Shown here: positions 6,328 to 18,728 of the stretch, one piece after another | Numbering within the stretch: position 1 is the stretch's first letter | How the letters are laid out: every line of letters begins with the position of its first letter | Source: Zeimonas sediminis | GTDB taxonomy: Bacteria; Pseudomonadota; Gammaproteobacteria; Burkholderiales; Burkholderiaceae_E | DNA length: 64,000 nt | Assembly (NCBI RefSeq): GCF_023721795.1 | Contig: NZ_JAMQYE010000001.1 | Span: 1,860,001 to 1,924,000, forward strand | Reading direction: 5' to 3' | Notes under the pieces: generated by a model | Databases searched by the model: none | What the model was told of the DNA's origin: nothing | Seen by the model: the letters and a program-made list of their open reading frames with translations, nothing else | Position numbers and translations under genes: made by a program

Positions 6328-6414
6328 TGGTGCCGGAGGCGGGAATCGAACCCGCACGCCCTTTCGGGCACCGGATTTTGAGTCCGGCGCGTCTACCAGT
6401 TCCACCACTCCGGC
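6328..6414 (-). tRNA. tRNA-Leu (anticodon CAA)
   Basis: An 87-base tRNA reading right to left. The acceptor stem GCCGGAG (6414-6408) pairs with CTCCGGC (6338-6332), followed by an encoded ACCA end (6331-6328). The anticodon arm is CCGGA-CTCAAAA-TCCGG, with anticodon CAA reading UUG leucine codons. A long class-II variable arm (TGCCCGAAAGGGCG) precedes the T arm GCGGG-TTCGATT-CCCGC. All arms pair well and nothing suggests a pseudogene. Confidence 0.97.
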
Positions 6415-6500: not shown

Positions 6501-7757
6501 TCAGCTCGTCTCGAAACGCCTGACGAAGTCGAGGAACACCTCGGCCGCGACGCCGGCGTCGGCGGCGGTCATCGTCTCGAGCGGATTGTGGCTGATGCCG
6601 CCGTTGCCGCAGCGTACGAAGAGCATGCAGACGTCGGTCAGCCGGGCGATCATCATCGCGTCGTGACCGGCGCCGCTGGGCAGCCGGAACGGGGCCACGC
6701 CTGCTCTCGCCACGCAGGCCTCGAGCAGATCGGCCAGGCGAGGCGCGCACGGCGCGCAGGGCACCTGCATCGTCGTCGCCAGGTCGAGCGTCACCCCGCG
6801 CCTCTCGGCGATCGCGCGGCACTCGCGAACCACGTCCGCGACAGCCGCGTCGCGCGTGGCATCGTCCGCCGCGCGGACGTCGAGGCTGAAATCGCACCGG
6901 CCCGGCACGACGTTGGCCGAGCCGTTCGGCACCGACAGCATCCCGACCGTGCCGACCAGCGTCGGCGCCTGACTGCAGCGCCGCTCGACCGCGAGGACCA
7001 TCTCCGCTGCTGCGGCCGCCGCATCCTTGCGCATGGTCATCGGCGTGGTGCCGGCATGCCCCGCGACGCCGGTCACCGTCGCGGTCATCCGCACGCTGCC
7101 GGCGATCGACGTGACGATGCCGACCGGAAGGCCCCGCTCCAGCAGCACCGGCCCCTGCTCGATGTGCACCTCGATGTAGCCGGCCGGCCGCCCGCGGTCA
7201 CGGGCAAGTGCCTGGATCGACGCTTCGGTGCCGGGCAGGCCGGCCGCGCGGATCGCATCGCGCAACGAGATGCCATCGGCGTCCGTCCGATCGAGAACGC
7301 CCATGTCGAAAGCGCCCGCGATCGCGCTCGACGACAGGAAGCTCGTCCGGAATCGCAGCCCCTCCTCTTCGGCAAAGCCGACGATCTCGATCGCGCATCC
7401 GAGGCGCTCGCCGCGCGCGTGCAGCGCGGCGACGACCGCGATCGGCAGCAGGATGCCCAGCCGTCCGTCGTACTTGCCGCCGTTGCGCACGGTGTCGAAG
7501 TGCGAGCCGGTCATCAGCACCGGCGCGTCGGGCGCCGCGCCCGCGTAGCGGCCGACGACGTTGCCCAGCGCATCGATCTCGGCCTCCATGCCGGCCTCGC
7601 GCATCCAGCCGGCCAGGTCGCGGGCGGCGGCGCGGTGCGCCGCGCCCAGGTAGGAGACGGTCAGGCCGTCGGGCTGGTCGGAGTGACGGGCCAGCGCCTC
7701 GGCCATCTCCAGGATCCGGGCGCCCAGCGATTCGGGCGAAGTCGGGGTGACGTTCAT
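6501..7757 (-). CDS. M20-family Zn-dependent amidase (hydantoinase/carbamoylase, allantoate amidohydrolase type)
   Basis: A 418-residue metal-dependent hydrolase of the HyuC/AllC family, which removes the carbamoyl group of N-carbamoyl amino acids or hydrolyses allantoate or ureidoglycolate-type ureides. Metal ligands are recognisable: GSHFD (His86), KYDGRLG (Asp97), AEEEGLRF (Glu131/Glu132) and HIEQGP. The inserted dimerisation domain carries GHAGTTPM. It is the last gene of a four-gene minus operon and its ATG overlaps the stop of the M20 gene upstream by four bases. Context (PuuE-like enzyme, hydantoin-type racemase, amidase, ABC importer) favours a ring-opened ureide or N-carbamoyl amino acid as substrate. 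Which of these it is cannot be told from sequence alone. Confidence 0.88.
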   Translation of the reverse strand: MNVTPTSPESLGARILEMAEALARHSDQPDGLTVSYLGAAHRAAARDLAGWMREAGMEAEIDALGNVVGRYAGAAPDAPVLMTGSHFDTVRNGGKYDGRLGILLPIAVVAALHARGERLGCAIEIVGFAEEEGLRFRTSFLSSSAIAGAFDMGVLDRTDADGISLRDAIRAAGLPGTEASIQALARDRGRPAGYIEVHIEQGPVLLERGLPVGIVTSIAGSVRMTATVTGVAGHAGTTPMTMRKDAAAAAAEMVLAVERRCSQAPTLVGTVGMLSVPNGSANVVPGRCDFSLDVRAADDATRDAAVADVVRECRAIAERRGVTLDLATTMQVPCAPCAPRLADLLEACVARAGVAPFRLPSGAGHDAMMIARLTDVCMLFVRCGNGGISHNPLETMTAADAGVAAEVFLDFVRRFETS

Positions 7758-9004
7758 CGGGCGGCATCCTCCGTGCCGGGGCTCGCCCCGAGCAGGTCGT
7801 GCAGCGCGCAGGCGACCACCTTGGTGGCCGTGCGCAGGTCCTCCAGAAGCAGGTTCTCGTCGGCGCGCTTGGCGTTCGCCTCCAGGATCGTCCGCGGCCC
7901 CGCGCCGTAGAGCACGATCGGCACGCCGGCCTCGCAGTAGAGTCTCGCATCGGTGTAGAGCGGCGTGCCGGTGACCGGCACCTGCTCGCCGAGCAGCCGC
8001 TCCGCATGGCGCTTCAGGGCCCCGACCAGGCGCTCGTGCCCCGGCAGCGGCGTGAGCGCGCGCGCCAGCAGCAACCTGCGGATTTCCACGCGGCAACCCG
8101 CCGGTGCGGACGCCTCGATCAGCCGGCGCAGCGAGGCCTCGACCTCGGCCGGATCCTCCTCGGGAATCATCCTGCGGTCGAGCCGGAAGCCGACCCGGTC
8201 CGGCACCACGTTCGTGTTGATGCCGCCCTCGATCCGCCCGACGTTGATCGTCGGGCATCCGATCCCCGGCACCTGCGAACGCATCCGCGCGTAGGCGTCC
8301 CGCTCGCCGTACAGCGCCTCGATGACCGCGATCGCGCCCGCGAGCGCATCGACACCGGTCTCCGGCATCGCCGCGTGGGCCGCCACGCCCCGCACGGTCA
8401 CCTCGAGCTGAAGGCAGCCGTTGTGCGCGGTGACGATCCCGTAGGAGAAGCCTGCACCGATCGCCAGGTCGGGCTTGCTCAGGCCGCGGGCCAGGATCCA
8501 GCCGGGACCCAGCTCGCCGCCGAACTCCTCGTCGTAGGTGAAGTGCAGCTCGACGGTGCCGGCCAGCGGCAGCCCGGTCTCGCGCAGCGCCCGAAGCGCG
8601 AACGCATAGGTCGCGAAGTCGCTCTTGGAAACCGCCACGCCGCGACCGTACATCCGACCGTCGACGATCTCGCCGCCGTAGGGCGGGTGGGTCCAGCCAT
8701 CGCCCGGCGGCACCACGTCGCCGTGCGCGTTCAGCGCGACGACGGGGCCGTCTCCGAACCGGTGGCGGACCAGCAGGTTGGTCAGCGACTTCAGCCCGCC
8801 GGCGGCCACCTCATGCGCCGGCACCGGATGGCGCTCGGCCGGAAAGCCCATCGCTTCGAGCAACTCTGCGGCACGCGCCGCATGCGGGGCGTTGTCGCCC
8901 GGCGGCGTGTCCGTCGGCACCCGCACCATCTCTCGCAGGAAGACGACCTGCTCTTCGAAGGCGCGGTCGACTGCGCGACAGATCGCGTCGTGCTGTTCGT
9001 TCAT
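7754..9004 (-). CDS. M20-family deacylase/peptidase (ArgE/DapE-like)
   Basis: A 416-residue member of the ArgE/DapE/ACY1 family of metal hydrolases that cleave N-acyl or peptide bonds. Visible metal-site motifs are LNAHGDVV (His94, Asp96), VSKSDF (Asp129), YDEEFGG (Glu159/Glu160) and a C-terminal ADENLL segment. The dimerisation domain holds GVAAHAAMPETG. There is no signal peptide, so it is cytosolic. It is coupled at both ends by ATGA overlaps with the PuuE-like gene before it and the carbamoylase after it. Its job is probably an amide cleavage in the same catabolic route; the exact substrate is not identifiable. Confidence 0.88.
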   Translation of the reverse strand: MNEQHDAICRAVDRAFEEQVVFLREMVRVPTDTPPGDNAPHAARAAELLEAMGFPAERHPVPAHEVAAGGLKSLTNLLVRHRFGDGPVVALNAHGDVVPPGDGWTHPPYGGEIVDGRMYGRGVAVSKSDFATYAFALRALRETGLPLAGTVELHFTYDEEFGGELGPGWILARGLSKPDLAIGAGFSYGIVTAHNGCLQLEVTVRGVAAHAAMPETGVDALAGAIAVIEALYGERDAYARMRSQVPGIGCPTINVGRIEGGINTNVVPDRVGFRLDRRMIPEEDPAEVEASLRRLIEASAPAGCRVEIRRLLLARALTPLPGHERLVGALKRHAERLLGEQVPVTGTPLYTDARLYCEAGVPIVLYGAGPRTILEANAKRADENLLLEDLRTATKVVACALHDLLGASPGTEDAAR

Positions 9005-9960
9005 CGTTGGGGGCCCAGGTCGATCGTCGGGGGATGGGTGGCGTGCCAGTGTCGGGCGATGTCGACCCGTCTGCAGACCCAGACGTCCCGATGGCCCTGC
9101 AGGTGGTCCAGGAAGCGCGCCAGCGCGGCAACGCGGCCTGGCCGCCCGGCCAGGCGGCAGTGCAGGCCGATCGACAGCATCTTGGGGGCGTCGAGGCCGT
9201 CGGGATCGCCTTCTCGATACAGCGTGTCGAACGCGTCGCGAAGATAGTCGAAGAACTGGCTGCCGCTGTTGAAGCCTTGCGCGGTGGCGAAGCGCATGTC
9301 GTTGCTGTCGAGCGCATACGGGATCACCAGGTGCCGGCTGGCGGGCGCGAGGCCCTCGACCCAGTACGGCAGGTCGTCCGCGTAGGAGTCCGAGTCGTAG
9401 AGGAAGCCGCCGTGCTCGAGAACCAGCCGGCGGGTGCGCGGTGAGTCGCGACCGGTGTACCAGCCGAGCGGGGGGCTGCCGGTGAGCTCGCGCAGGATCC
9501 CGACCGCCTCGCCGATGTGCGCGCGCTCGGTGGCCTCGTCGACCGACTGGTAGGAGATCCAGCGCAGCCCGTGGCAAGCGATCTCGTGACCGAGCTCGAC
9601 GAAGGCCGACGCGACATCGGGATGCCGCCTCAGCGCCATCGCGACGCCGAATATCGTGAGCGGCAGGCCGCGCTCCTCGAACAGCCGCAACAGCCGCCAG
9701 ACCCCGGCGCGCGAGCCGTACTCGTAGATCGACTCCATCGAAAGGTGGCGGTCCGCGAAGGCCTGCGCGCCGATGATCTCGGACAGGAAGGTCTCCGAGG
9801 CCGGGTCGCCGTGCAGCACGCAGTTCTCGCCGCCCTCCTCGTAGTTCAGCACGAACGAGACCGCGACGCGCGCGCCGCCCGGCCAGCGCGGATGCGGCGG
9901 CCTGCGTCCATAGCCGATCAGGTCGCGCGGGTAGGCGGACGAATTCGCGTCGAGGCTCAT
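9001..9960 (-). CDS. puuE: PuuE-like allantoinase / polysaccharide-deacetylase-fold cyclic amidohydrolase
   Basis: A 319-residue protein of the NodB-fold branch containing the cofactor-independent allantoinase PuuE, which opens the allantoin ring. Visible motifs are SFVLNYEEGGE near residue 35-45, ESIYEYGSRAGVWR, GHEIACHGLRWISYQSV and GWYTGRDSPRTRRL. These are typical of PuuE and its uncharacterised relatives rather than of peptidoglycan or chitin deacetylases. It lies second in the GntR-led operon, with ATGA overlaps on both sides. No urate hydroxylase, transthyretin-like hydrolase or allantoicase is in the window, so true allantoin may not be its substrate; another hydantoin or cyclic ureide is possible. 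Confidence 0.8.
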   Translation of the reverse strand: MSLDANSSAYPRDLIGYGRRPPHPRWPGGARVAVSFVLNYEEGGENCVLHGDPASETFLSEIIGAQAFADRHLSMESIYEYGSRAGVWRLLRLFEERGLPLTIFGVAMALRRHPDVASAFVELGHEIACHGLRWISYQSVDEATERAHIGEAVGILRELTGSPPLGWYTGRDSPRTRRLVLEHGGFLYDSDSYADDLPYWVEGLAPASRHLVIPYALDSNDMRFATAQGFNSGSQFFDYLRDAFDTLYREGDPDGLDAPKMLSIGLHCRLAGRPGRVAALARFLDHLQGHRDVWVCRRVDIARHWHATHPPTIDLGPQR

Positions 9961-10790
9961 GGCTTCTTCCTGGATGAGGCAGGAGCCCTCTTCGGCGCCG
10001 GCGCGGCCGCCCGGGCCGGCCTGCGGCCCGGCTTCGGGCCGCGCGCCGCGCCGAACAGGCGCAGGAAATCGATCTCGGGGCGGGCGGACCGCTCCCGAAG
10101 CTTCATCTCGCAGTGCTCGAGGTGATGCCCCATCAGCCGCGCCGCGGCCGCCATGTCGCCCGCGCGGATCGCGTCGAGGATCTCGCGGTGCTCGTCGAAG
10201 GAGCACACGCCGTGCCCGGGGGTTTCGTAGAGGGCGATCATCAGCGAGGTGCGGGCGACCAGCCCGCGCAGCAGGGACACCAGTTCCCGGTTGCCGAAGG
10301 CTCCGACCAGCCGCAGGTGGAATTCGCCCGACAGCCGGATCAGGCGGGACCGCTCCCCTTCGCGATGGGCTCGCTCCTCTTCGTCCACGAGCGCGGCCAG
10401 CGCCTGCTGCATCCGGGGCTCGGGCGCCGCGTGCGCCTGCAGCAGCGCGGTCTCGATCAGCCGGCGCGCCTCGAACACTTCCCGCGTTTCCCTGGGCGAG
10501 GCCTGGGCGATCAGCGCGCCGCGGTTGTGATGAAGCTCGATCACCTTCTCGCTCGCCAGCCGCACCAGCACCCGCCGCAGCAACGAGCGGTTGACACCGA
10601 AGGCCTCGCAGAGCGGCATCTCGACGAGACGGGTGCCCGGCGGCAGCTGATGGGACATGACCGCCTCGAGGATCGCCGCGTGCACGCGATCCTCCTCGGC
10701 GCGCTCGTGGCGCGCCGCATCGGCCGGATCGGCGCTGACCCGGCCAGGCGGTGCGGACCGCGGCGAAGGGGATGTCGAAGTGGAACGCAT
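9957..10790 (-). CDS. GntR-family transcriptional regulator (FCD domain)
   Basis: A 277-residue regulator with a winged helix at about residues 33-97 (LCEAFGVNRSLLRRVLVRLASEK) and an all-helical FCD effector domain at about 103-230 (VFEARRLIETALL, EFHLRLVGAFGN, DEHREILDAIRAGD). A basic Lys/Arg/Pro/Ala-rich tail (about 245-277) is unusual. The ATG at 10790 is preferred, although no Shine-Dalgarno precedes it; TTG at 10844 and GTG at 10814 are alternative in-frame starts. It heads the minus operon and faces the transporter operon, so it probably controls both, binding an acid or ureide intermediate. It is coupled to the PuuE-like gene by an ATGA overlap. Confidence 0.85.
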   Translation of the reverse strand: MRSTSTSPSPRSAPPGRVSADPADAARHERAEEDRVHAAILEAVMSHQLPPGTRLVEMPLCEAFGVNRSLLRRVLVRLASEKVIELHHNRGALIAQASPRETREVFEARRLIETALLQAHAAPEPRMQQALAALVDEEERAHREGERSRLIRLSGEFHLRLVGAFGNRELVSLLRGLVARTSLMIALYETPGHGVCSFDEHREILDAIRAGDMAAAARLMGHHLEHCEMKLRERSARPEIDFLRLFGAARGPKPGRRPARAAAPAPKRAPASSRKKP

Positions 10791-10809
10791 GGTGACGCGG
10801 GACAGGGCT

Positions 10810-10825
10810 AGCACGAGGCATGCCA
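10810..10825 (-). promoter_or_regulatory. Weaker sigma-54-like -24/-12 element facing the GntR operon
   Basis: On the minus strand the order is TGGCATG-CCTC-GTGC-T. The essential GG and GC dinucleotides are kept with the correct ten-base gap, and two other consensus positions differ. The start would fall near 10799, only about nine bases before the chosen GntR ATG. So either that transcript is almost leaderless, or the element is fortuitous. It uses the same CCTC spacer as the stronger opposite-facing promoter. Confidence 0.35.
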
Positions 10826-10835
10826 GCCGAGAAGA

Positions 10836-10844
10836 TTGTGACAA
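10836..10844. promoter_or_regulatory. Candidate GntR operator palindrome
   Basis: TTGTGACAA is a perfect palindrome about its central G, 46 bases upstream of the regulator start and just upstream of the minus-strand -24 element. Many FCD-type GntR proteins bind short palindromes of this general size next to their own gene. No second copy is seen in the gap, so the assignment is tentative. Confidence 0.3.
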
Positions 10845-11084
10845 ACCGTGCGTCGATTGTACCCGTCACCATGCTCGAAGGCGGGCCGGTGCACGCTCGA
10901 GTCGCCAACTGGCCCTCGCCCGCTTCCAAGGCGGAGAGCGCGTCCGAATGCCGCATCGCCCGGAGTACCGTCCACGATCCCCACAGCGGTGCGACAGGCA
11001 CGAAGCGCTTGCGCTGGCATCCCAACTTGGTGCGAATGGGTGTCGGATCGTTACAAAAATTGCGCCGATCCCGGGGCAGCGCCC

Positions 11085-11099
11085 TGGCACGCCTCTTGC
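11085..11099 (+). promoter_or_regulatory. Sigma-54 (RpoN) promoter of the ABC transporter operon
   Basis: TGGCACG-CCTC-TTGC matches every fixed position of the sigma-54 consensus TGGCACG-N4-TTGC, with GG at 11086-11087 and GC at 11098-11099 separated by ten bases. Transcription should begin near 11111, leaving a leader of about 40 bases that contains the AGGAGG ribosome site of the binding-protein gene. Sigma-54 promoters need an activator (for example NtrC), so the operon is probably induced by nitrogen limitation or by a dedicated activator. Confidence 0.75.
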
Positions 11100-11151
11100 C
11101 TGAGTCCCTGCGGTTTCACTGTCCCTCATTCGCGTGAACAAGGAGGCTCGA

Positions 11152-12819
11152 ATGGCTCGGAATCGATGGCACCTGAAGAAGCTGGCGCTGGCCGCGACGA
11201 CCGTGGTGGCGCTGGCGGCAGGCTTGAGCGGGCCCGCCACCGCCCAGGAGAAGGTCCTGCGGATCGGCATGACCGCTGCGGACATCCCGCGCACCCTCGG
11301 CCAGCCCGACCAGGGATTCGAGGGCAATCGCTTCACCGGGATCCCGATGTACGACGCGCTGACTCACTGGGACCTGTCGAAGCGCGACGAGCCGAGCGTG
11401 CTGGTTCCCGGCCTCGCCACCTCGTGGTCGGTCGACGCCAGCGACAAGACCAAGTGGGTCTTCAAGCTGCGCCCCGGCGTCAAGTTCCACGATGGCTCGC
11501 CGTTCAATGCGGACGCGGTCGTCTGGAACGTCCGGAAGGTGCTGGACAAATCTGCGCCGCACTTCGACGCCAGCCAGGTAGGCGTGACAGCGTCTCGGAT
11601 GCCCACGTTGCGCAGCGCCAGGAAGATCGACGACATGACCGTCGAGCTCACGACGAGCGAGCCCGACTCCTTCCTGCCGCTGAACCTGACCAACCTGTTC
11701 ATGGCCTCGCCGGCGCACTGGGAGGCCAAGCTGAAGGCGGTTCCCGCCAGCGTCACCGATCCGGCCGAGCGCGCCAAGCAGGCGTGGACCGCCTTCGCCG
11801 CCGACGCCTCGGGCTCGGGTCCGTTCAAGATGGCCCGCTTCGTGCCGCGCGAGCGTCTGGAACTGGTGGCGAACAAGGACTACTGGGATCCGAAGCGCGT
11901 GCCGAAGATCGACCGCGTGGTGATGCTGCCGATTCCCGAGGCGAACGCCCGCACGGCCGCCCTGCTGTCGGGCCAGGTCGACTGGATCGAGGCCCCCGCC
12001 CCCGATGCGATGCCCCAGATCCGCAGCCGCGGGTTCGTCATCCACAGCAATCCGCAGCCCCACGTCTGGCCCTGGCAACTCTCCTTCGCCGAGGGCTCGC
12101 CCTGGCTCAACCGGGACGTTCGCCACGCAGCGAATCTCTGCGTCGATCGCGAGGGCCTCTCGCAGTTCCTGGGCGGCATGATGGGCGTCCCGAAAGGCAC
12201 AGTGCCGCCCGGCCATCCCTGGTGGGGCGACCCGAAGTTCGACATCCGCTACGACCCGAAGGCCGCGCAGGCGCTGATGGCCAAGGCCGGTCACTCGGCC
12301 CAGAAGCCGCTGAAGGTCAAGGTCCAGATCTCGGCCTCCGGATCGGGCCAGATGCAGCCCCTGCCGATGAACGAGTTCGTCCAGCAGTCGCTCAAGCAGT
12401 GCTACTTCGACGTCGAGTTCGACGTCATCGAGTGGAACACGCTGTTCACGAACTGGCGGCGCGGCGCCAAGGACCCGACGGCCAACGGCGCCCACGCGAT
12501 CAACGTCAGCTTCGCGGCGATGGATCCGTTCTTCGCGATGGTGCGCTTCACCAGCACGAAGGCCTTTCCGCCCGTCTCGAACAACTGGGGCTACTTCGGC
12601 AACGAGGAGTTCGACAAGCTGATCGCCGATGCGCGGAACACCTTCGAAGACAAGGCCCGCGACGCGGCCCTCGCGAAGCTGCACGCCCGGATCGTCGAGG
12701 AAGCGCCGTTCGTCTGGATCGCCCACGACGTCGGCCCGCGCGCGATGAGCGCGAAGGTCAAGAACGTGGTGCAGCCCAAGAGCTGGTTCATCGACATCGC
12801 CCCGATGACGATCGAATGA
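11152..12819 (+). CDS. ABC transporter substrate-binding protein, peptide/nickel family (SBP family 5)
   Basis: A 555-residue periplasmic binding protein. The ATG at 11152 is chosen because a perfect AGGAGG lies five bases upstream; a GTG 18 bases earlier is unlikely. Residues 1-32 form a Sec signal peptide ending PATAQ. The mature protein begins EKVLRIGMTAADIPRTLGQPDQG and shows family-5 features: the LVPGLATSWSVD and WVFKLRPGVKFHDG blocks near the N-terminus, then DKLIADARNTF and ARIVEEAPFVWIAHD near the end. It is the first gene of an operon with two permeases and two ATPases. The family binds peptides, opines, nickel or sugars; neighbouring amidohydrolases suggest an amide- or ureide-containing ligand. 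Confidence 0.92.
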   Translation: MARNRWHLKKLALAATTVVALAAGLSGPATAQEKVLRIGMTAADIPRTLGQPDQGFEGNRFTGIPMYDALTHWDLSKRDEPSVLVPGLATSWSVDASDKTKWVFKLRPGVKFHDGSPFNADAVVWNVRKVLDKSAPHFDASQVGVTASRMPTLRSARKIDDMTVELTTSEPDSFLPLNLTNLFMASPAHWEAKLKAVPASVTDPAERAKQAWTAFAADASGSGPFKMARFVPRERLELVANKDYWDPKRVPKIDRVVMLPIPEANARTAALLSGQVDWIEAPAPDAMPQIRSRGFVIHSNPQPHVWPWQLSFAEGSPWLNRDVRHAANLCVDREGLSQFLGGMMGVPKGTVPPGHPWWGDPKFDIRYDPKAAQALMAKAGHSAQKPLKVKVQISASGSGQMQPLPMNEFVQQSLKQCYFDVEFDVIEWNTLFTNWRRGAKDPTANGAHAINVSFAAMDPFFAMVRFTSTKAFPPVSNNWGYFGNEEFDKLIADARNTFEDKARDAALAKLHARIVEEAPFVWIAHDVGPRAMSAKVKNVVQPKSWFIDIAPMTIE

Positions 12820-12877
12820 GCAGGTAGATCCGCGCGCCGCCCGTCCGCGGGCGGGCGGCGCCTCCGGAACCCCGACG

Positions 12878-13831
12878 ATGCTCACTTATCTGTTCCACCG
12901 GATCCTCTACACGCTGCCGATCATGCTCGGCGTGGCGCTGGTCTGCTTCGCGCTGGTCCACCTGGCGCCCGGCGACCCGCTCGTGTCGGTGCTGCCGCCG
13001 GACGCCTCGGCCGATCTGCAGCAACAACTCCGCGTGCTCTACGGCTTCGACCGCAGCTACCCGGAGCAGTTCGCGAGCTGGATCTGGCGCGCCATGCAGG
13101 GCGACCTCGGCACCTCGATCGCGGCAGGACGGCCGGTGGCCGACGAGGTCCTCAGGGCCGTCGGCAACACGCTGATCCTCGCCGGCATCGCAACGCTGAT
13201 CGGCTTCTTCCTCGGCAGCCTGTTCGGCTTCGTCGCCGGCTACTTCCGCGACTCCTGGGTCGACAAGCTCGCCTCGCTCCTCTCCACGGTCGGCGTCAGC
13301 GTTCCGCACTACTGGCTGGGCATGGTCCTGGTGATCGTGTTCGCCTCACAGCTGAACTGGCTGCCGGCGACCGGCGCCGGGCCAGGCGGCTCGTCGGAAT
13401 GGGCCTGGGACTGGGAGCACATGCGCCACCTGATCCTTCCGGCAATCACGATGAGCGTGATCCCGATGGGCATCATCAGCCGAACGGTGCGTGCCCTGGT
13501 GGCCGAGATCCTCGCCCAGGAATTCGTCGTCGGCCTGCGCGCGAAGGGGCTGACCAACCTGGGGATCTTCCGCCACGTGGTGAAGAACGTCGCCCCGACC
13601 GCGCTGGCCGTCATGGGCCTGCAGCTGGGCTACCTGCTCGGCGGATCGATCCTGATCGAGACCGTGTTTTCCTGGCCCGGCACCGGGTTCCTTCTCAACA
13701 GCGCGATCTTCCAGCGCGACCTGCCGCTGCTGCAGGGAACGATCCTGGTGCTGGCGATGTTCTTCGTGCTGCTCAACCTGATCGTGGACATCCTCCAGAG
13801 CCTGCTCGACCCGAGGATGTCGAGGACATGA
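12878..13831 (+). CDS. ABC transporter permease, DppB/OppB type
   Basis: A 317-residue inner-membrane permease. The N-terminus is the classic first helix of DppB proteins (LTYLFHRILYTLPIMLGVALVCFALVHLAPGDP), followed by five further hydrophobic segments. The coupling loop EFVVGLRAKGLTNLGIFRHVVKNVAP (about 211-236) is the EAA motif that contacts the ATPase. It lies 58 bases after the binding-protein gene, and its stop overlaps the next permease start by four bases (ATGA). It forms the transmembrane channel with the DppC-like partner. Confidence 0.93.
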   Translation: MLTYLFHRILYTLPIMLGVALVCFALVHLAPGDPLVSVLPPDASADLQQQLRVLYGFDRSYPEQFASWIWRAMQGDLGTSIAAGRPVADEVLRAVGNTLILAGIATLIGFFLGSLFGFVAGYFRDSWVDKLASLLSTVGVSVPHYWLGMVLVIVFASQLNWLPATGAGPGGSSEWAWDWEHMRHLILPAITMSVIPMGIISRTVRALVAEILAQEFVVGLRAKGLTNLGIFRHVVKNVAPTALAVMGLQLGYLLGGSILIETVFSWPGTGFLLNSAIFQRDLPLLQGTILVLAMFFVLLNLIVDILQSLLDPRMSRT

Positions 13832-14721
13832 TGACGACCGCGATCGACGCTTCGAAAGTGCCGGCGCCCGCCTTCGACCGCAGCCCGGGCTACTGGACGA
13901 CGGTCGGCCGCCGCTTCATGCGCGACCCGGTCGCCGTGACGGCCGCCGCGGTCGTGCTGCTGCTGATCCTGCTCGCCGTGTTCGGTGGCTACCTGACGCC
14001 TGCCGACCCGTACAAGGCCTCGATGCTCAGCCGCCTGAAGCCGATCGGCACGCCCGGCTTCCTGCTGGGAACCGACGAGCTGGGCCGCGACATGCTGTCC
14101 CGGCTGATGGTCGGCGCGAGGCTCTCGCTGTTCATGGGGATCACGCCGGTGGTCGCTGCCTTCGTGATCGGCTCGGCGCTCGGGATCCTCGCCGGCTATG
14201 CGGGCGGCTACGTGAACACGGTGATCATGCGCACGATCGACGTGTTCTACGCCTTCCCGTCGGTGCTGCTGGCGATCGCGCTGTCGGGCGCGCTCGGCGC
14301 GGGGATCTTCAACGCGCTGCTCAGCCTGACGATCGTCTTCGTCCCGCCGATCGCAAGGGTCGCCGAGAGCGTGACGACACAGGTGCGCGCGCGCGACTTC
14401 GTCGAGGCGGCGCGCGCCTCGGGCGCCGGCGCCTTCACGATCGTGCGGGTGCACGTGCTCGGCAACGTCCTGGGCCCCATCTTCGTGTACTCGACGAGCC
14501 TGATCGCGGTCTCGATGATCCTGGCCTCGGGCTTGTCGTTCCTCGGACTGGGCGTCAAGCCGCCCGAGCCGGAGTGGGGGCTGATGCTCAACACGCTGCG
14601 CACCGCGATCTACACCCAGCCGTGGATCGCCGCCCTGCCGGGCGTGATGATCTTCGTCACCTCGATCTCCTTCAACATGCTTTCCGACGGACTGCGCTCC
14701 GCGATGGACGTCAAGCAATGA
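13828..14721 (+). CDS. ABC transporter permease, DppC/OppC type
   Basis: A 297-residue partner permease. The start at 13828 overlaps the stop of the upstream permease; the frame is open much further left, but that part is shadow sequence. The N-terminal cytoplasmic segment precedes [24 protein letters not shown], then the family motif [23 protein letters not shown]. The EAA loop ([26 protein letters not shown]) lies near residue 190-215. The C-terminus [23 protein letters not shown] is typical. Its stop overlaps the start of the first ATPase gene. Confidence 0.93.
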
Positions 14722-15758
14722 GCGCGACCCGGCACCACGACGTGGGCGGGCCCGCCCAGCCACTGCTGACCGTGCGCGGCCTGTTCAAGCACTTCCCGCT
14801 GAAGTCCCGCCTCGCCGGCAAGGGCGCGGTGGTCCGCGCGGTCGACGGCGTCGACTTCACCGTGCTCAAGGGCGAGACGCTCGGCGTGGTCGGCGAGTCC
14901 GGCTGCGGCAAGAGCACCACCGCCCGGCTGCTGATGCACCTGATCGAGCCCGACCGCGGCGAGATCGTCTTCGACGGCCGGATCGTGGGCTCGCGCGACC
15001 TGCCGCTCAAGGAGTTCCGGCGCCAGGTGCAGATGGTCTTCCAGGACAGCTACTCGTCGCTGAACCCGAGGCTCACGATCGAGGACTCGATCGCCTTCGC
15101 CCCCCGCGTGCACGGCGTGCCGCACCGCGAGTCGGTCGAGCGTGCCCGCGATCTGCTCGCGCGGGTCGGCCTCGAGCCCGCGCGCTTCGCCGAGCGCTAC
15201 CCTCACGAGCTCTCGGGCGGCCAGCGCCAGCGGGTCAACATCGCGCGCGCGCTCGCCCTGCAGCCCCGGCTGATCATCCTCGACGAGGCGGTTTCGGCGC
15301 TGGACAAGTCGGTCGAGGCCCAGGTGCTGAACCTGCTGCTGGACCTCAAGGAGGAGTTCGGGCTCACCTATGTCTTCATCAGTCACGACCTGCACGTCGT
15401 ACGCTACGTGTCCGACCAGGTGATGGTGATGTACCTGGGCCGCGTGGCCGAGGTGGGCCCGACCGAATCGCTGTTCGACGCGCCGCTGCATCCGTACACG
15501 CGGGCGCTGCTTTCGTCGATGCCGTCGATGGATCCCGATCGGCGCACGACCGAGGCGCCGCTCAGCGGCGACCCGCCGAACCCGATCGATCCGCCGCCCG
15601 GATGCCGATTCCACACCCGCTGCGCGCTCGCCGAGGCGGTCTGCAGTGAACGCACGCCGGCCCTGCCCGGCACCGCCGCCGGTCACTACGTCTCCTGCCT
15701 GGTCCACGAGGCCGGTTCCGGGCACTCGCGCGCCCCGCATCCGACGGTAGTCCGATGA
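14718..15758 (+). CDS. ABC transporter ATP-binding protein, DppF/OppF type
   Basis: A 346-residue ATPase. Walker A is [10 protein letters not shown] (59-68), the Q-loop is [13 protein letters not shown], the signature is LSGGQRQR and Walker B is [12 protein letters not shown], followed by the switch His in FISHDLHVV. The C-terminal oligopeptide-transporter extension has [11 protein letters not shown], a Cys cluster found in Dpp/Opp ATPases. It is coupled by ATGA overlaps to the permease before it and the second ATPase after it. With that second ATPase it should form the heterodimeric motor of the importer. Confidence 0.92.
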
Positions 15759-16795
15759 ACGACACGCCCCCGACATCGATGCCCAACTCCCCCCTGGTCA
15801 GTGTCCGCGGCCTGCAGGTCCTCTTCCAGGGCGGGCGGCGCCCCGTTCAGGCGGTCAACGGCGTGGACCTCGACGTGGCGCGCGGCCAGACCGTCGCGCT
15901 GATCGGGGAGTCCGGCTCCGGCAAGAGCGTCACGCTGCGCACCCTGCTCCGGCTTCACGACGCGAAGCGCACCCGGGTGACCGGCGAGATCCGGGTCGCC
16001 GGGCTCGACGTCCTGGGCCTGGACGGCCGGGCACTTGCCGATTACCGCGGCAAGGTCACCTCGATGATCTTCCAGGAGCCCCTGCTGGCCCTGGACCCGG
16101 TCTACACGGTCGGCAGCCAGATCGTCGAGAGCATCCGGCGACACGAGCGGGTTTCGGTGGCCGACGCGCGCCGGCGCGCCCTCGAGCTTTTCGAGCGCGT
16201 GCGCATCCCGAGCCCCGAGCGCCGCCTCGATGCCTACCCGCACGAGATGAGCGGCGGCATGCGCCAGCGCGCGATGATCGCGCTCGCGCTCGCCTGCCGG
16301 CCGCAGCTTCTGCTGGCCGACGAGCCGACCACCGCCCTGGACGCGACCGTGCAGATCCAGATCCTGCTGCTGCTCAGGGAGTTGCAGAAGGACCTCGGGC
16401 TGTCGATCGTCTTCGTGACGCACGACATCGGCGCTGCGATCGAGGTGGCCGACAGGATCGCCGTCATGTACGCGGGCAGGATCGTCGAGGAAGGCCCGGC
16501 GGCAGCGATCGTCCGCCAGCCCCGCCATCCGTACACGATCGCCCTGCTGCAGGGACGCGCGAGCAGTGGTGCAGGACACGGGCTCGCACGCGGTGCAAGG
16601 CTCCGGACGATCGGCGGCTCGCCGCCCGACCTGTCGGACCTGCCGCCGGGTTGCGCGTTCGCCGCGCGCTGCGCCTACGCGCAGGCCGAATGCCGGCAGG
16701 TTCGACCCGATCCGGTGCGGATCGCGGCCGATCACGGCGTGCGCTGCCTGCGCACCGACGCCACGCTCGACGCGATGGCAGGCGCGCACGGATGA
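15755..16795 (+). CDS. ABC transporter ATP-binding protein, DppD/OppD type
   Basis: A 346-residue ATPase, the partner of the preceding one. Walker A is GESGSGKSVT (51-60), the Q-loop segment is MIFQEPLLALDPVYTVG, the signature is MSGGMRQR, Walker B is LLLADEPTTALD and the switch is VTHDIG. The DppD/OppD C-terminal motif PPGCAFAARCAYAQAECRQV is present. The order F-type then D-type is reversed from the usual dppDF. The stop overlaps the racemase start by four bases, so transport and catabolism are translationally linked. Confidence 0.92.
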   Translation: MNDTPPTSMPNSPLVSVRGLQVLFQGGRRPVQAVNGVDLDVARGQTVALIGESGSGKSVTLRTLLRLHDAKRTRVTGEIRVAGLDVLGLDGRALADYRGKVTSMIFQEPLLALDPVYTVGSQIVESIRRHERVSVADARRRALELFERVRIPSPERRLDAYPHEMSGGMRQRAMIALALACRPQLLLADEPTTALDATVQIQILLLLRELQKDLGLSIVFVTHDIGAAIEVADRIAVMYAGRIVEEGPAAAIVRQPRHPYTIALLQGRASSGAGHGLARGARLRTIGGSPPDLSDLPPGCAFAARCAYAQAECRQVRPDPVRIAADHGVRCLRTDATLDAMAGAHG

Positions 16796-17529
16796 AGATC
16801 GTCGTCGTCAACCCGAACACGACCGCGTCGATGACTCGCGCGATCGGCGAGACCGCCGCGCGGGTCGCCGCCGCCGGGACCGACATCGTGGCGGTCAACC
16901 CCGCCGACGGTCCGGCGTCGATCGAGGGCTTCTACGACGAGGCCTTCGCGGTGCCCGGGCTGTTGCGCGAGATCGCCCGCTTCGAGCGCGACGCGCCGGC
17001 CGATGCCTACGTGGTCGCCTGCTTCGACGACACCGGCCTCGAAGCCGCGCGCTGCCTCGCGCGCGCGCCGGTCGTCGGCATCGGCGAGGCCGCGTTCCAC
17101 ATGGCCTCGCTGCTCGCCGCCCGCTTCAGCGTCATCACCACGCTCGGTCGCTCGGTGGTGGCCCTCGAGCACAACCTGTCGAAGTACGGCCTGTCGAGTC
17201 GCTGCGCCCGGGTTCGCGCCGCCGAAGTTCCGGTTCTGTCGCTCGAGCAGCCCGGATCGCCGGCCCGCGCGCGAATCGACGCCGAGATCGCCCGCGCGCT
17301 GTCCGAGGACCGCGCCGAGGCGATCGTGCTGGGCTGCGCGGGCATGACATCGCTGGCGGCCTCGCTGTCGACGACCCACGGCGTTCCGGTGCTCGACGGC
17401 GTCGCCGCCGCAGTGAAACTCGCCGAGGGCCTGGCCGCGCTGGGACTACGGACCTCCAAGGCCTGCAGCTATGCGCCGCCGCTGGCGAAGACCTTCGACG
17501 GGGTTTTCGCAGGCGATGCGCCCCGCTGA
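16792..17529 (+). CDS. Asp/Glu/hydantoin racemase family protein
   Basis: A 245-residue cytosolic racemase-fold protein beginning MKIVVVNPNTTASMT, the usual N-terminus of the hydantoin/allantoin racemase branch. Two catalytic cysteines are in place: VVACFDDTG (Cys77) and VLGCAGMT (Cys182). The family epimerises hydantoins, allantoin or acidic amino acids without a cofactor. It is translationally coupled to the ABC ATPase gene and lies 17 bases before an amidase gene. With a PuuE-like enzyme and a carbamoylase in the opposite operon, a chiral cyclic ureide or hydantoin is a reasonable substrate guess. Confidence 0.87.
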   Translation: MKIVVVNPNTTASMTRAIGETAARVAAAGTDIVAVNPADGPASIEGFYDEAFAVPGLLREIARFERDAPADAYVVACFDDTGLEAARCLARAPVVGIGEAAFHMASLLAARFSVITTLGRSVVALEHNLSKYGLSSRCARVRAAEVPVLSLEQPGSPARARIDAEIARALSEDRAEAIVLGCAGMTSLAASLSTTHGVPVLDGVAAAVKLAEGLAALGLRTSKACSYAPPLAKTFDGVFAGDAPR

Positions 17530-17546
17530 ATAGAGGAGAGGCCACG

Positions 17547-18728
17547 ATGCTGCTGCCCGAGGATCCCGCCCACGCCTTCGTACCGTACCCGGCGGTGCCG
17601 GTGCCCCATGCCGGCGGAGGGCCGCTTGCCGGGCTGAGCTTCGCGGCGAAGGACCTGTTCGACGTCGCGGGATATCCGACCGGGGGCGGTTGCCCTACCG
17701 TGCTGGCCATGTCGGGCATCAAGACGAACAGCGCGCCGATCGTGCAGAGACTGCTCGACGCCGGCGCGCGATTCGTCGGCAAGACCCATACCGACGAACT
17801 CGCCTTCAGCATGAACGGCCGGAACGCCCACTTCGGCACGCCGCGCAACGGCGGCGCACCGGAGCGGATCCCGGGCGGCTCGTCGAGCGGCTCGGCATCG
17901 GCGGTCAGCAATGCGCTCTGCGACTTCGCGCTGGGCACCGACACCGGGGGCTCGGTCCGCGCCCCCGCCAGCCACTGTGGCCTTTTCGGCATTCGCCCGA
18001 CGCACGGCAGGGTGCCCCTGGAGGCTTGTCTCGATCTCTCGCCCAGCCTCGATACCTGCGGCTTCTTCACCCGGGATGCCGGGACCTTCGCGCGGGTCGC
18101 CGATGTGATCCTCGGCCCGGACCCGGCGCCGCTGCCGCGCGTGGTTCGACTGCTGCGGCCCGACGATGTCTGGCACCTGCTCGCACCCGAAGCGAGGGCG
18201 GCGCTCGAGCCGGCCCTCGCCCGCGTCGAGCAGGCCCTCGGCGAGGCGGCCCCCTGCAGGGTCGCGCGCGACGGATTCGACACGATGTACTGGAACTTCC
18301 GCTACATCCAGGGTCGCGAGGCCTGGGTGGCCGACGGACCGATGATCGATCGCCACGCGCCGCCGCTCGGGCCGGGGGTGGCCGAGCGATTCGAGTGGTC
18401 CAGGCGCGTCACCGACGCGCAGTTCGACGGAGCAACGGACTTCCGCAAGGCATTCTCGGCACAGCTCTCCGGCCTGCTCGGCGCCGACGGCATACTGGTC
18501 ATGCCGACCATGCCCGACGTTGCGCCGCTGCTGTCGGCCGACGAGAGCCGCCTCGAGGACTATCGCAACGCCGCGATCCGGATGCTCTGCATCGCCGGGC
18601 TGGCCGGCTTCCCGCAGGTATCGATGCCGCTCGCGCGCCGGCTCGGCGCGCCGCTCAGCCTCTCCCTGCTCGGCCCGGCCGGCAGCGACCGCTCGCTCGT
18701 CGCGCTGGTCGAGCGTATCGCGGGTTGA
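17547..18728 (+). CDS. Amidase signature family amidase
   Basis: A 393-residue enzyme of the amidase signature family (Ser-cisSer-Lys triad), preceded by AGAGGAGAG before the ATG at 17547. The triad is visible: SFAAKDLFDV (Lys35), PGGSSSGSAS (Ser about 112-114) and GTDTGGSVRAPA (Ser136 nucleophile). At 393 residues it is shorter than GatA (about 480) and close to small aryl or aliphatic amidases such as AtzE/biuret-hydrolase relatives. There is no neighbouring gatB or gatC, so a role in tRNA amidation is unlikely. It is the last gene of the sigma-54 operon and ends 18 bases from a convergent PAP2 gene. It probably releases ammonia from an imported amide. Confidence 0.88.
   Translation: MLLPEDPAHAFVPYPAVPVPHAGGGPLAGLSFAAKDLFDVAGYPTGGGCPTVLAMSGIKTNSAPIVQRLLDAGARFVGKTHTDELAFSMNGRNAHFGTPRNGGAPERIPGGSSSGSASAVSNALCDFALGTDTGGSVRAPASHCGLFGIRPTHGRVPLEACLDLSPSLDTCGFFTRDAGTFARVADVILGPDPAPLPRVVRLLRPDDVWHLLAPEARAALEPALARVEQALGEAAPCRVARDGFDTMYWNFRYIQGREAWVADGPMIDRHAPPLGPGVAERFEWSRRVTDAQFDGATDFRKAFSAQLSGLLGADGILVMPTMPDVAPLLSADESRLEDYRNAAIRMLCIAGLAGFPQVSMPLARRLGAPLSLSLLGPAGSDRSLVALVERIAG

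Follow-up and report, generated by a model that had tools for sequence, protein, structure and literature searches.

Allantoin utilization systems of the hpx/all type, whose gene names we take to be hpxSAB and hpxK in Klebsiella and allABC in E. coli, combine a GntR-type regulator, an allantoin racemase, a PuuE-type allantoinase and an allantoate amidohydrolase (AAH). These gene types recur in an eleven-gene locus of Zeimonas sediminis, at positions 6501-18728 of the window (the whole 64,000-nucleotide stretch that we analyzed, positions 1,860,001 to 1,924,000 of contig NZ_JAMQYE010000001.1). Unlike hpx/all-type systems, the locus also carries a Dpp-type ABC importer, a protein of the M20 family and an amidase, and AllA was not found in its genome. 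The Burkholderiales urate operon PuuD-UraH-UraD-PuuE-AAH-M20 offers a second comparison: its PuuE, AAH and M20 are orthologous to those of the locus and likewise adjacent, but the locus is without the urate-to-allantoin genes and follows the order PuuE-M20-AAH (as at locus L041 of genome G387; G-numbers denote genomes and L-numbers loci) rather than PuuE-AAH-M20. Plasmid pMET1 of Aminobacter sp. NyZ550 carries an importer, racemase, PuuE, AAH and M20 in a row. There, the importer is annotated as a branched-chain amino acid type, no amidase was seen, and urea transport and urease genes come after the allantoin genes (L277:8963-25173).

We propose that the locus probably imports allantoin, or else a closely related purine ureide, to degrade it for nitrogen, with the M20 protein cleaving ureidoglycolate at the end of the route. 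The substrates, the order of the steps and the M20 reaction are what we infer from the gene content, protein families and co-occurrence described below. Up to AAH the route is ordinary, and the interest rests on the M20 protein. Ureidoglycolate is the last intermediate and, according to PMC3793230, is split either by AllA, releasing urea, or by UAH, releasing ammonia. The M20 protein would share both its substrate and its place in the pathway with AllA (PF04115) and plant UAH, but it is of the DapE/ArgE type and matched neither of them; UAH chains match AAH and are absent among the M20 matches.

Distribution of the M20 protein relative to AAH and AllA

The M20 protein (7754..9004, minus strand, 416 aa) has matches in 51 of 399 Burkholderiales genomes, its own included, and the other full-length matches are 57-76% identical to it. 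Among 51 fetched neighbourhoods from 50 other genomes, first gene calls recovered M20 in 48, AAH in 38, PuuE in 29, a PuuD cluster in 26 and a cluster of HIU hydrolases in 22, with UraD present either alone or fused to AAH. Gene calls for these relatives were self-trained for lower-GC loci, with a coverage of 62% at L057 and L084; at L129 and L138, where gene calls are unreliable, no AAH was called between PuuE and M20. One neighbourhood cluster that had been guessed to be xanthine dehydrogenase turned out to be malic enzyme. The fusion places UraD at the N-terminus of AAH (L064:10695-12476 and relatives of about 590 aa), and the fused UraD acts two reactions upstream of AAH.

We then considered 80 named M20 loci, the best-scoring 80 of at least 586 confirmed matches in another genome collection, which overlap the 51 neighbourhoods in at least one genome and of which 49 stretches exceed 20 kb. 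AAH was present in 72, UraD in 69, PuuE in 69, UraH in 56 and PuuD in 42, and neither AllA nor allantoicase in any within the flanks covered; taking the best-scoring loci favours close relatives in this set. Matches on plasmids amount to 36 records, and five of these were viewed. Two Azospirillum plasmids and one from Roseomonas carry AAH-M20 pairs without PuuE nearby, as do L042-L044 among the fetched neighbourhoods, and the fourth plasmid is pMET1. On the fifth, from Burkholderia aenigmatica (L279:3791-12032), an M20 orthologue has an amidohydrolase, a carbon-nitrogen hydrolase and a racemase around it, with no annotated AAH or PuuE in the stretch. Public records name the protein "ArgE/DapE family deacylase", "M20/M25/M40 family metallo-hydrolase" or "M20 family metallopeptidase". 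Literature titles and abstract openings, in which subscription journals are little covered, gave no M20 protein of this kind at the ureidoglycolate step.

PuuE scored over its cut-off at 96 loci in 95 of the 399 genomes. M20 lay within 15 kb of PuuE at 33 of these loci and AllA at 28, while both were near at a single one. Counted by genome, 34 of the 95 had M20 only, 28 AllA only and 20 neither. A count restricted to 80 PuuE-positive genomes, 15 of the 95 being left out on grounds of quality, same-genus duplicates and a limit of 80, gave AAH in 50, allantoicase in 24 and both in none. M20 was found in 42 of the 50 genomes with AAH as against 4 of the 30 without it, and in 3 of the 24 with allantoicase, all 24 of which carry AllA.

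Shared ancestry was controlled for with a PuuE tree of the 80 genomes, built by a quick method, on which AAH requires a minimum of 12 changes, M20 14, allantoicase 10 and AllA 16. Across 7 independent pairs joined by supported branches, M20 followed AAH in 5.8 on average and opposed it in 0.0; one opposite case appeared in 4 of 200 pairings, and the median p was 0.03 (range 0.016-0.22). The link between M20 and AAH is thus the firm one. The mutual exclusion of M20 and AllA is clear in the loci and not significant after the ancestry control.

Several observations weigh against a simple replacement of AllA by M20. The two occur together in 13 of the 95 PuuE genomes, and AllA is present in 9 of the 50 AAH genomes, all of which also have M20. 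Conversely, 8 of the 50 AAH genomes have neither M20 nor AllA over 90 bits, which implies that the last step can be carried out by other means. Of the 15 omitted genomes, 9 belong to one genus (g17), in which M20 was found in none and AllA in G330 only, and the two members of this genus that were retained have AAH without M20; the full PuuE set would probably weaken the figure of 42 in 50, leaving a weaker yet still clear link between M20 and AAH. The PuuE tree, moreover, is no species tree, and on it the remaining associations are not significant (median p 0.375 for allantoicase and M20, 0.25 for AllA and M20, 0.0625 for allantoicase with AllA). At L057, L071, L082 and L087, M20 orthologues stand without a recognised purine gene nearby.

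Metal ligands and candidate reactions of the M20 protein

By its fold, the M20 protein resembles the DapE/ArgE deacylases. It scores over the PF01546 cut-off and just under that of TIGR01910 (217.3 against 217.6 bits), and an AlphaFold model (pLDDT 93.7) has the DapE structures 7uoi and 5vo3 as its best Foldseek matches. Metal ligands were mapped by a profile alignment to DapE and by aligning the protein, with MAFFT, to eight other M20-family proteins encoded in its genome; three of the eight carry the DapE/ArgE-type ADMK/GDMK motif. The DapE ligands, which we take to be numbered H67, D100, E135, E163 and H349, correspond to H94, V125, E160, G185 and K379. Three of the five are therefore replaced in the locus protein, namely the bridging aspartate (V125), one glutamate (G185) and the C-terminal histidine (K379), and H94 and E160 are kept.

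These replacements extend across the clade. At 131 loci, position 125 is Val in 130 and Ala in 1, and position 185 is Gly in 121, Ser in 7 and Ala in 3; position 379 is Lys in 118 and His in 12, with one sequence unaligned. In the five plasmid copies, position 125 is Val in four and Thr in Aminobacter, and position 379 is His in all five. The bridging aspartate is thus gone from every copy examined and the C-terminal histidine from most only, which sets the clade apart from DapE/ArgE in the former ligand and one glutamate, while the pocket is otherwise fixed: H94, D96, K127, D129, E159, E160, H194 and H210 are invariant in 131 of 131. The loss of the bridging ligand makes ordinary di-zinc deacylation or hydrolysis doubtful, and a lyase becomes conceivable when the altered metal site is considered alongside the AllA pattern.

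We tentatively suggest, with somewhat less than even confidence, that in the AAH branch of the pathway the place of AllA is taken by the M20 clade, as a new ureidoglycolate-cleaving enzyme that is not homologous to AllA and is built on an amidohydrolase fold. With the bridging ligand lost, its chemistry would be either that of a lyase or a hydrolysis using no more than one metal. In view of the dismantled di-metal site, we lean slightly to a urea-releasing lyase over an amidohydrolase. UreC had no match in the 131 M20 loci, though it lies near M20 on the Aminobacter plasmid, which does not decide between lyase and hydrolase.

The same replaced residues could instead mean that M20 is a catalytically dead partner subunit or a regulator of AAH. 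This appears improbable, since eight active-site neighbours invariant in every locus are unlike a dead enzyme, and since G119, G267, G352 and G381 have M20 but no match to the locus AAH at E 1e-90.

Another possibility, slightly less remote but still unlikely, is that the substrate of M20 is ureidoglycine, which AAH produces directly, and not ureidoglycolate. Allantoicase is not known to make ureidoglycine, and M20 tracks AAH more than allantoicase, as this alternative would have it; the AAH-M20 pairs without PuuE nearby, at L042-L044 and on the plasmids, point the same way. However, G352 and G267 carry a PuuE-allantoicase-M20 operon in which M20 lies directly behind allantoicase, so that the intermediate shared by the two branches would be ureidoglycolate. 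AllA is also present in both genomes, a further point against our proposal, as the M20 gene there could be a relic. The complementary gene also argues for ureidoglycolate, since AllA, a member of a cupin-fold family, acts on this compound according to PMC3793230.

If ureidoglycolate cleavage by M20 is true, it would assign the last step of purine breakdown in those Burkholderiales and some Alphaproteobacteria that have an allantoate amidohydrolase without AllA, and it would add an unusual M20 fold that is active without its bridging metal ligand.

Steps of the putative allantoin pathway

The assignment of the pathway starts from PuuE (9001..9960, minus strand, 319 aa), which scores 514.8 bits against TIGR03212 ("allantoinase PuuE"; cut-off 424.6) and reaches 467 bits with 3CL6, a PuuE allantoinase of solved structure. 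Judged by these matches, PuuE is the predicted allantoinase of the locus, and it is the only protein of the genome over the TIGR03212 cut-off. The PuuE of P. fluorescens is stereoselective and converts (S)-allantoin (PMC6983136), and such selectivity would give the racemase encoded in the locus a reason.

This racemase (16792..17529, plus strand, 245 aa; PF01177) matches no NCBIfam model. The solved structures closest to it are 3QVJ (218 bits) and 3QVK, which carry the record name putative hydantoin racemase, followed in third place by 5LFD, recorded as "Allantoin racemase" (162 bits). We take 3QVJ to be the Klebsiella allantoin racemase HpxA. Two cysteines of the locus protein, in line with the catalytic pair of HpxA/PuuH-type allantoin racemases, align at positions that are serine in the 3QVK chain. 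In L110 and L062, PuuE and an NCS1-type permease are found next to a racemase belonging to the same cluster, and matches to the locus racemase sit with NCS1 and PuuE in L133, L147 and L187.

AAH (6501..7757, minus strand, 418 aa) exceeds the cut-off of NF006775, "allantoate amidohydrolase" (508.3 against 479 bits). NF010373 scores higher (564.3) yet stays under its own cut-off of 1087. The motifs GSHFD, KYDG, AEEEG, EVHIEQG and SHNP align with 3N5F and presumably hold the metal ligands. As the nearest solved relative is the L-carbamoylase 3N5F (286.6 bits), ahead of AllC (178.4), the name allantoate amidohydrolase stays a proposal, and this point counts against the allantoin assignment.

The relationship to 3N5F, an N-carbamoyl-L-amino acid hydrolase, also speaks for a different pathway, in which hydantoins or N-carbamoyl amino acids would be broken down in the manner of hydantoinase operons, with a racemase, a ring-opening enzyme and a carbamoylase. 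The racemase fits with this, sharing its Pfam family with hydantoin racemases and having a putative hydantoin racemase as its best solved relative. Even so, we regard such a function as very unlikely: the ring-opening enzyme is PuuE and not a hydantoinase, the third solved relative of the racemase bears the name allantoin racemase, and in relatives PuuE, AAH and M20 sit in urate operons. A hydantoin or pyrimidine pathway was accordingly rejected as the leading interpretation, with PuuE over the allantoinase cut-off and relatives that are urate operons.

Under the allantoin reading, the Dpp-type ABC importer would bring the ureide in, the racemase would convert (R)-allantoin to (S)-allantoin, and PuuE would open the ring to give allantoate. 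AAH would then take the carbamoyl group off allantoate, yielding ureidoglycine/ureidoglycolate, and the M20 protein would turn ureidoglycolate into glyoxylate. The GntR protein is probably a sensor for one of the intermediates. Whole-genome searches of Z. sediminis for PuuD, UraD (OHCU decarboxylase), allantoicase and AllA found none of them; these searches did not extend to Uox, HpxO, HIU hydrolase, the ureidoglycine aminohydrolase cupin or urease. With no match for those four, the locus looks like a salvage route that starts from allantoin and not from urate.

A preliminary description of this DNA had proposed nitrogen scavenging by uptake and stepwise hydrolysis of a cyclic ureide, a hydantoin-linked peptide or a pyrimidine derivative. 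Nitrogen scavenging and probable ureide uptake and hydrolysis agree with our results, the cyclic ureide most likely being allantoin; a hydantoin-linked peptide or pyrimidine is not supported as the main substrate. Its statement that the route does not match standard purine breakdown was too cautious, given that PuuE is the predicted allantoinase and that AAH can replace allantoicase, as the lack of overlap between AAH and allantoicase among the 80 PuuE-positive genomes indicates.

Importer operon and gene layout

The importer consists of five Dpp/Opp-type parts, all on the plus strand. The substrate-binding protein (SBP; 11134..12819) matches SBP_bac_5 with 246 bits, and its start is likelier the ATG at 11152, which is preceded by AAGGAGG. 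Permease 1 (12878..13831) matches BPD_transp_1; permease 2 (13828..14721), which overlaps each neighbouring gene by 4 bases, shares 82-86% identity with permeases of cognate clusters. ATPase 1 (14718..15758) and ATPase 2 (15755..16795) both match ABC_tran and oligo_HPY. Families were assigned by Pfam and NCBIfam profile scans, except that permease 2 lay outside the Pfam scan, so four parts rest on Pfam and the fifth on homology. The racemase follows the importer, and the operon ends with the amidase-signature enzyme (17547..18728, plus strand, 393 aa), which scores 533.8 bits against NF006169/PRK08310 (cut-off 391) and travels with the importer in relatives.

The SBP has matches in 18 of 239 genomes, its own included, the others at 47-87% identity. 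PuuE is over its cut-off in 16 of the 18, own genome included, where about 4 would be predicted from its frequency of 95 in 399. On the other side, the SBP lies within 15 kb of PuuE in just 5 of the 18, again counting its own, and a 75% relative sits in a hexuronate locus on a Paracoccus aestuarii plasmid. Allantoin or another ureide is a putative ligand of the importer, and the amidase is left unassigned. If the proposed ligand is right, it would point to Dpp-type importers as a means of taking up ureides.

It is possible, though rather unlikely, that two modules lie back to back, the enzyme operon acting on allantoin and the importer-racemase-amidase operon on a different amide or ureido compound, such as allantoate, an N-carbamoyl acid or an amide that resembles a peptide. 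The importer-amidase cassette does occur in stretches without PuuE, beside a second carbamoylase-family enzyme (c8) and/or AllA (L092, L093, L094, L099 and L101), and a Klebsiella plasmid carries the importer with a 56% relative of c8, to which the Paracoccus hexuronate locus can be added. Among the fetched loci, the nearest relatives of the two halves also differ, being G387 for PuuE, M20 and AAH and G228, G125, G152 and G377 for the importer half. The search for a shared operator gave none: in a comparison of nine promoter regions, that of the window had no FadR-like site, no 11-base word common to at least two others and no shared palindrome. A FadR-like pattern was present in two of the nine (G171 and G377), and 11-base words were common to G125, G152 and G228.

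The arrangement in other genomes argues for a single pathway. The urate clusters of G125 and G228 contain, next to GntR-PuuE, the amidase and the same importer together with a racemase from a different clade, and in G059 the importer occurs with AAH, M20, PuuE, UraD and UraH. The racemase of the locus itself is of the allantoin-racemase type. On a Dinoroseobacter plasmid, a racemase comes directly after the importer. Two variants of the cassette were also observed. In L093, L094 (7320-10450), L099 and L101 a second carbamoylase-family enzyme (PRK09290.1-3 type) stands with it, and the combination of this enzyme, the cassette and AllA in one operon of L094 suggests another ureide pathway. In L095:9573-11200 and L097:9613-11250, whose two genomes belong to the same family, racemase and amidase are separated by a further binding protein with 49% identity to the locus SBP.

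The eleven genes, with five enzymes and a five-part importer, were all located where the preliminary description had placed them, and Pfam, NCBIfam and homology bear out their types. It had called the two operons facing, whereas they run apart, the enzymes on the minus strand and the importer, racemase and amidase on the plus strand. Its count of eight short-spaced pairs out of nine within the operons, most with a 4-base overlap, was accurate: seven pairs overlap by 4 bases, one has a gap of 17 bases, and one, between SBP and permease, a gap of 58. Since related clusters recur in other genomes, the grouping is not due to chance. A scan on over-long open reading frames had hinted at deviant codon usage in the enzyme half, which third-position GC ruled out: with true gene bounds it is 0.89-0.96 across the locus, and the median for 40 other genes of the window is 0.95.

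PuuE and M20 had no match in two other sampled genomes of the genus, so the locus may be an island. A tRNA-Leu gene lies at 6328-6414, 86 bases past the end of the enzyme operon. The first gene of that operon encodes the GntR/FCD-type regulator (9957..10844, minus strand; PF00392 and PF07729). Its start is uncertain, being either the TTG at 10844 or the GTG at 10685 picked by the gene caller, with which the GntR domain match would lose its first residues. A paralogous trio of a PuuE-like deacetylase, an amidase and a GntR protein occurs in a row elsewhere in the same genome (L104:7770-10700; C1 at about 2320770-2323700). Its members are 30% (PuuE-like deacetylase, under the TIGR03212 cut-off), 42% (amidase) and 42% (GntR) identical to their counterparts in the locus.

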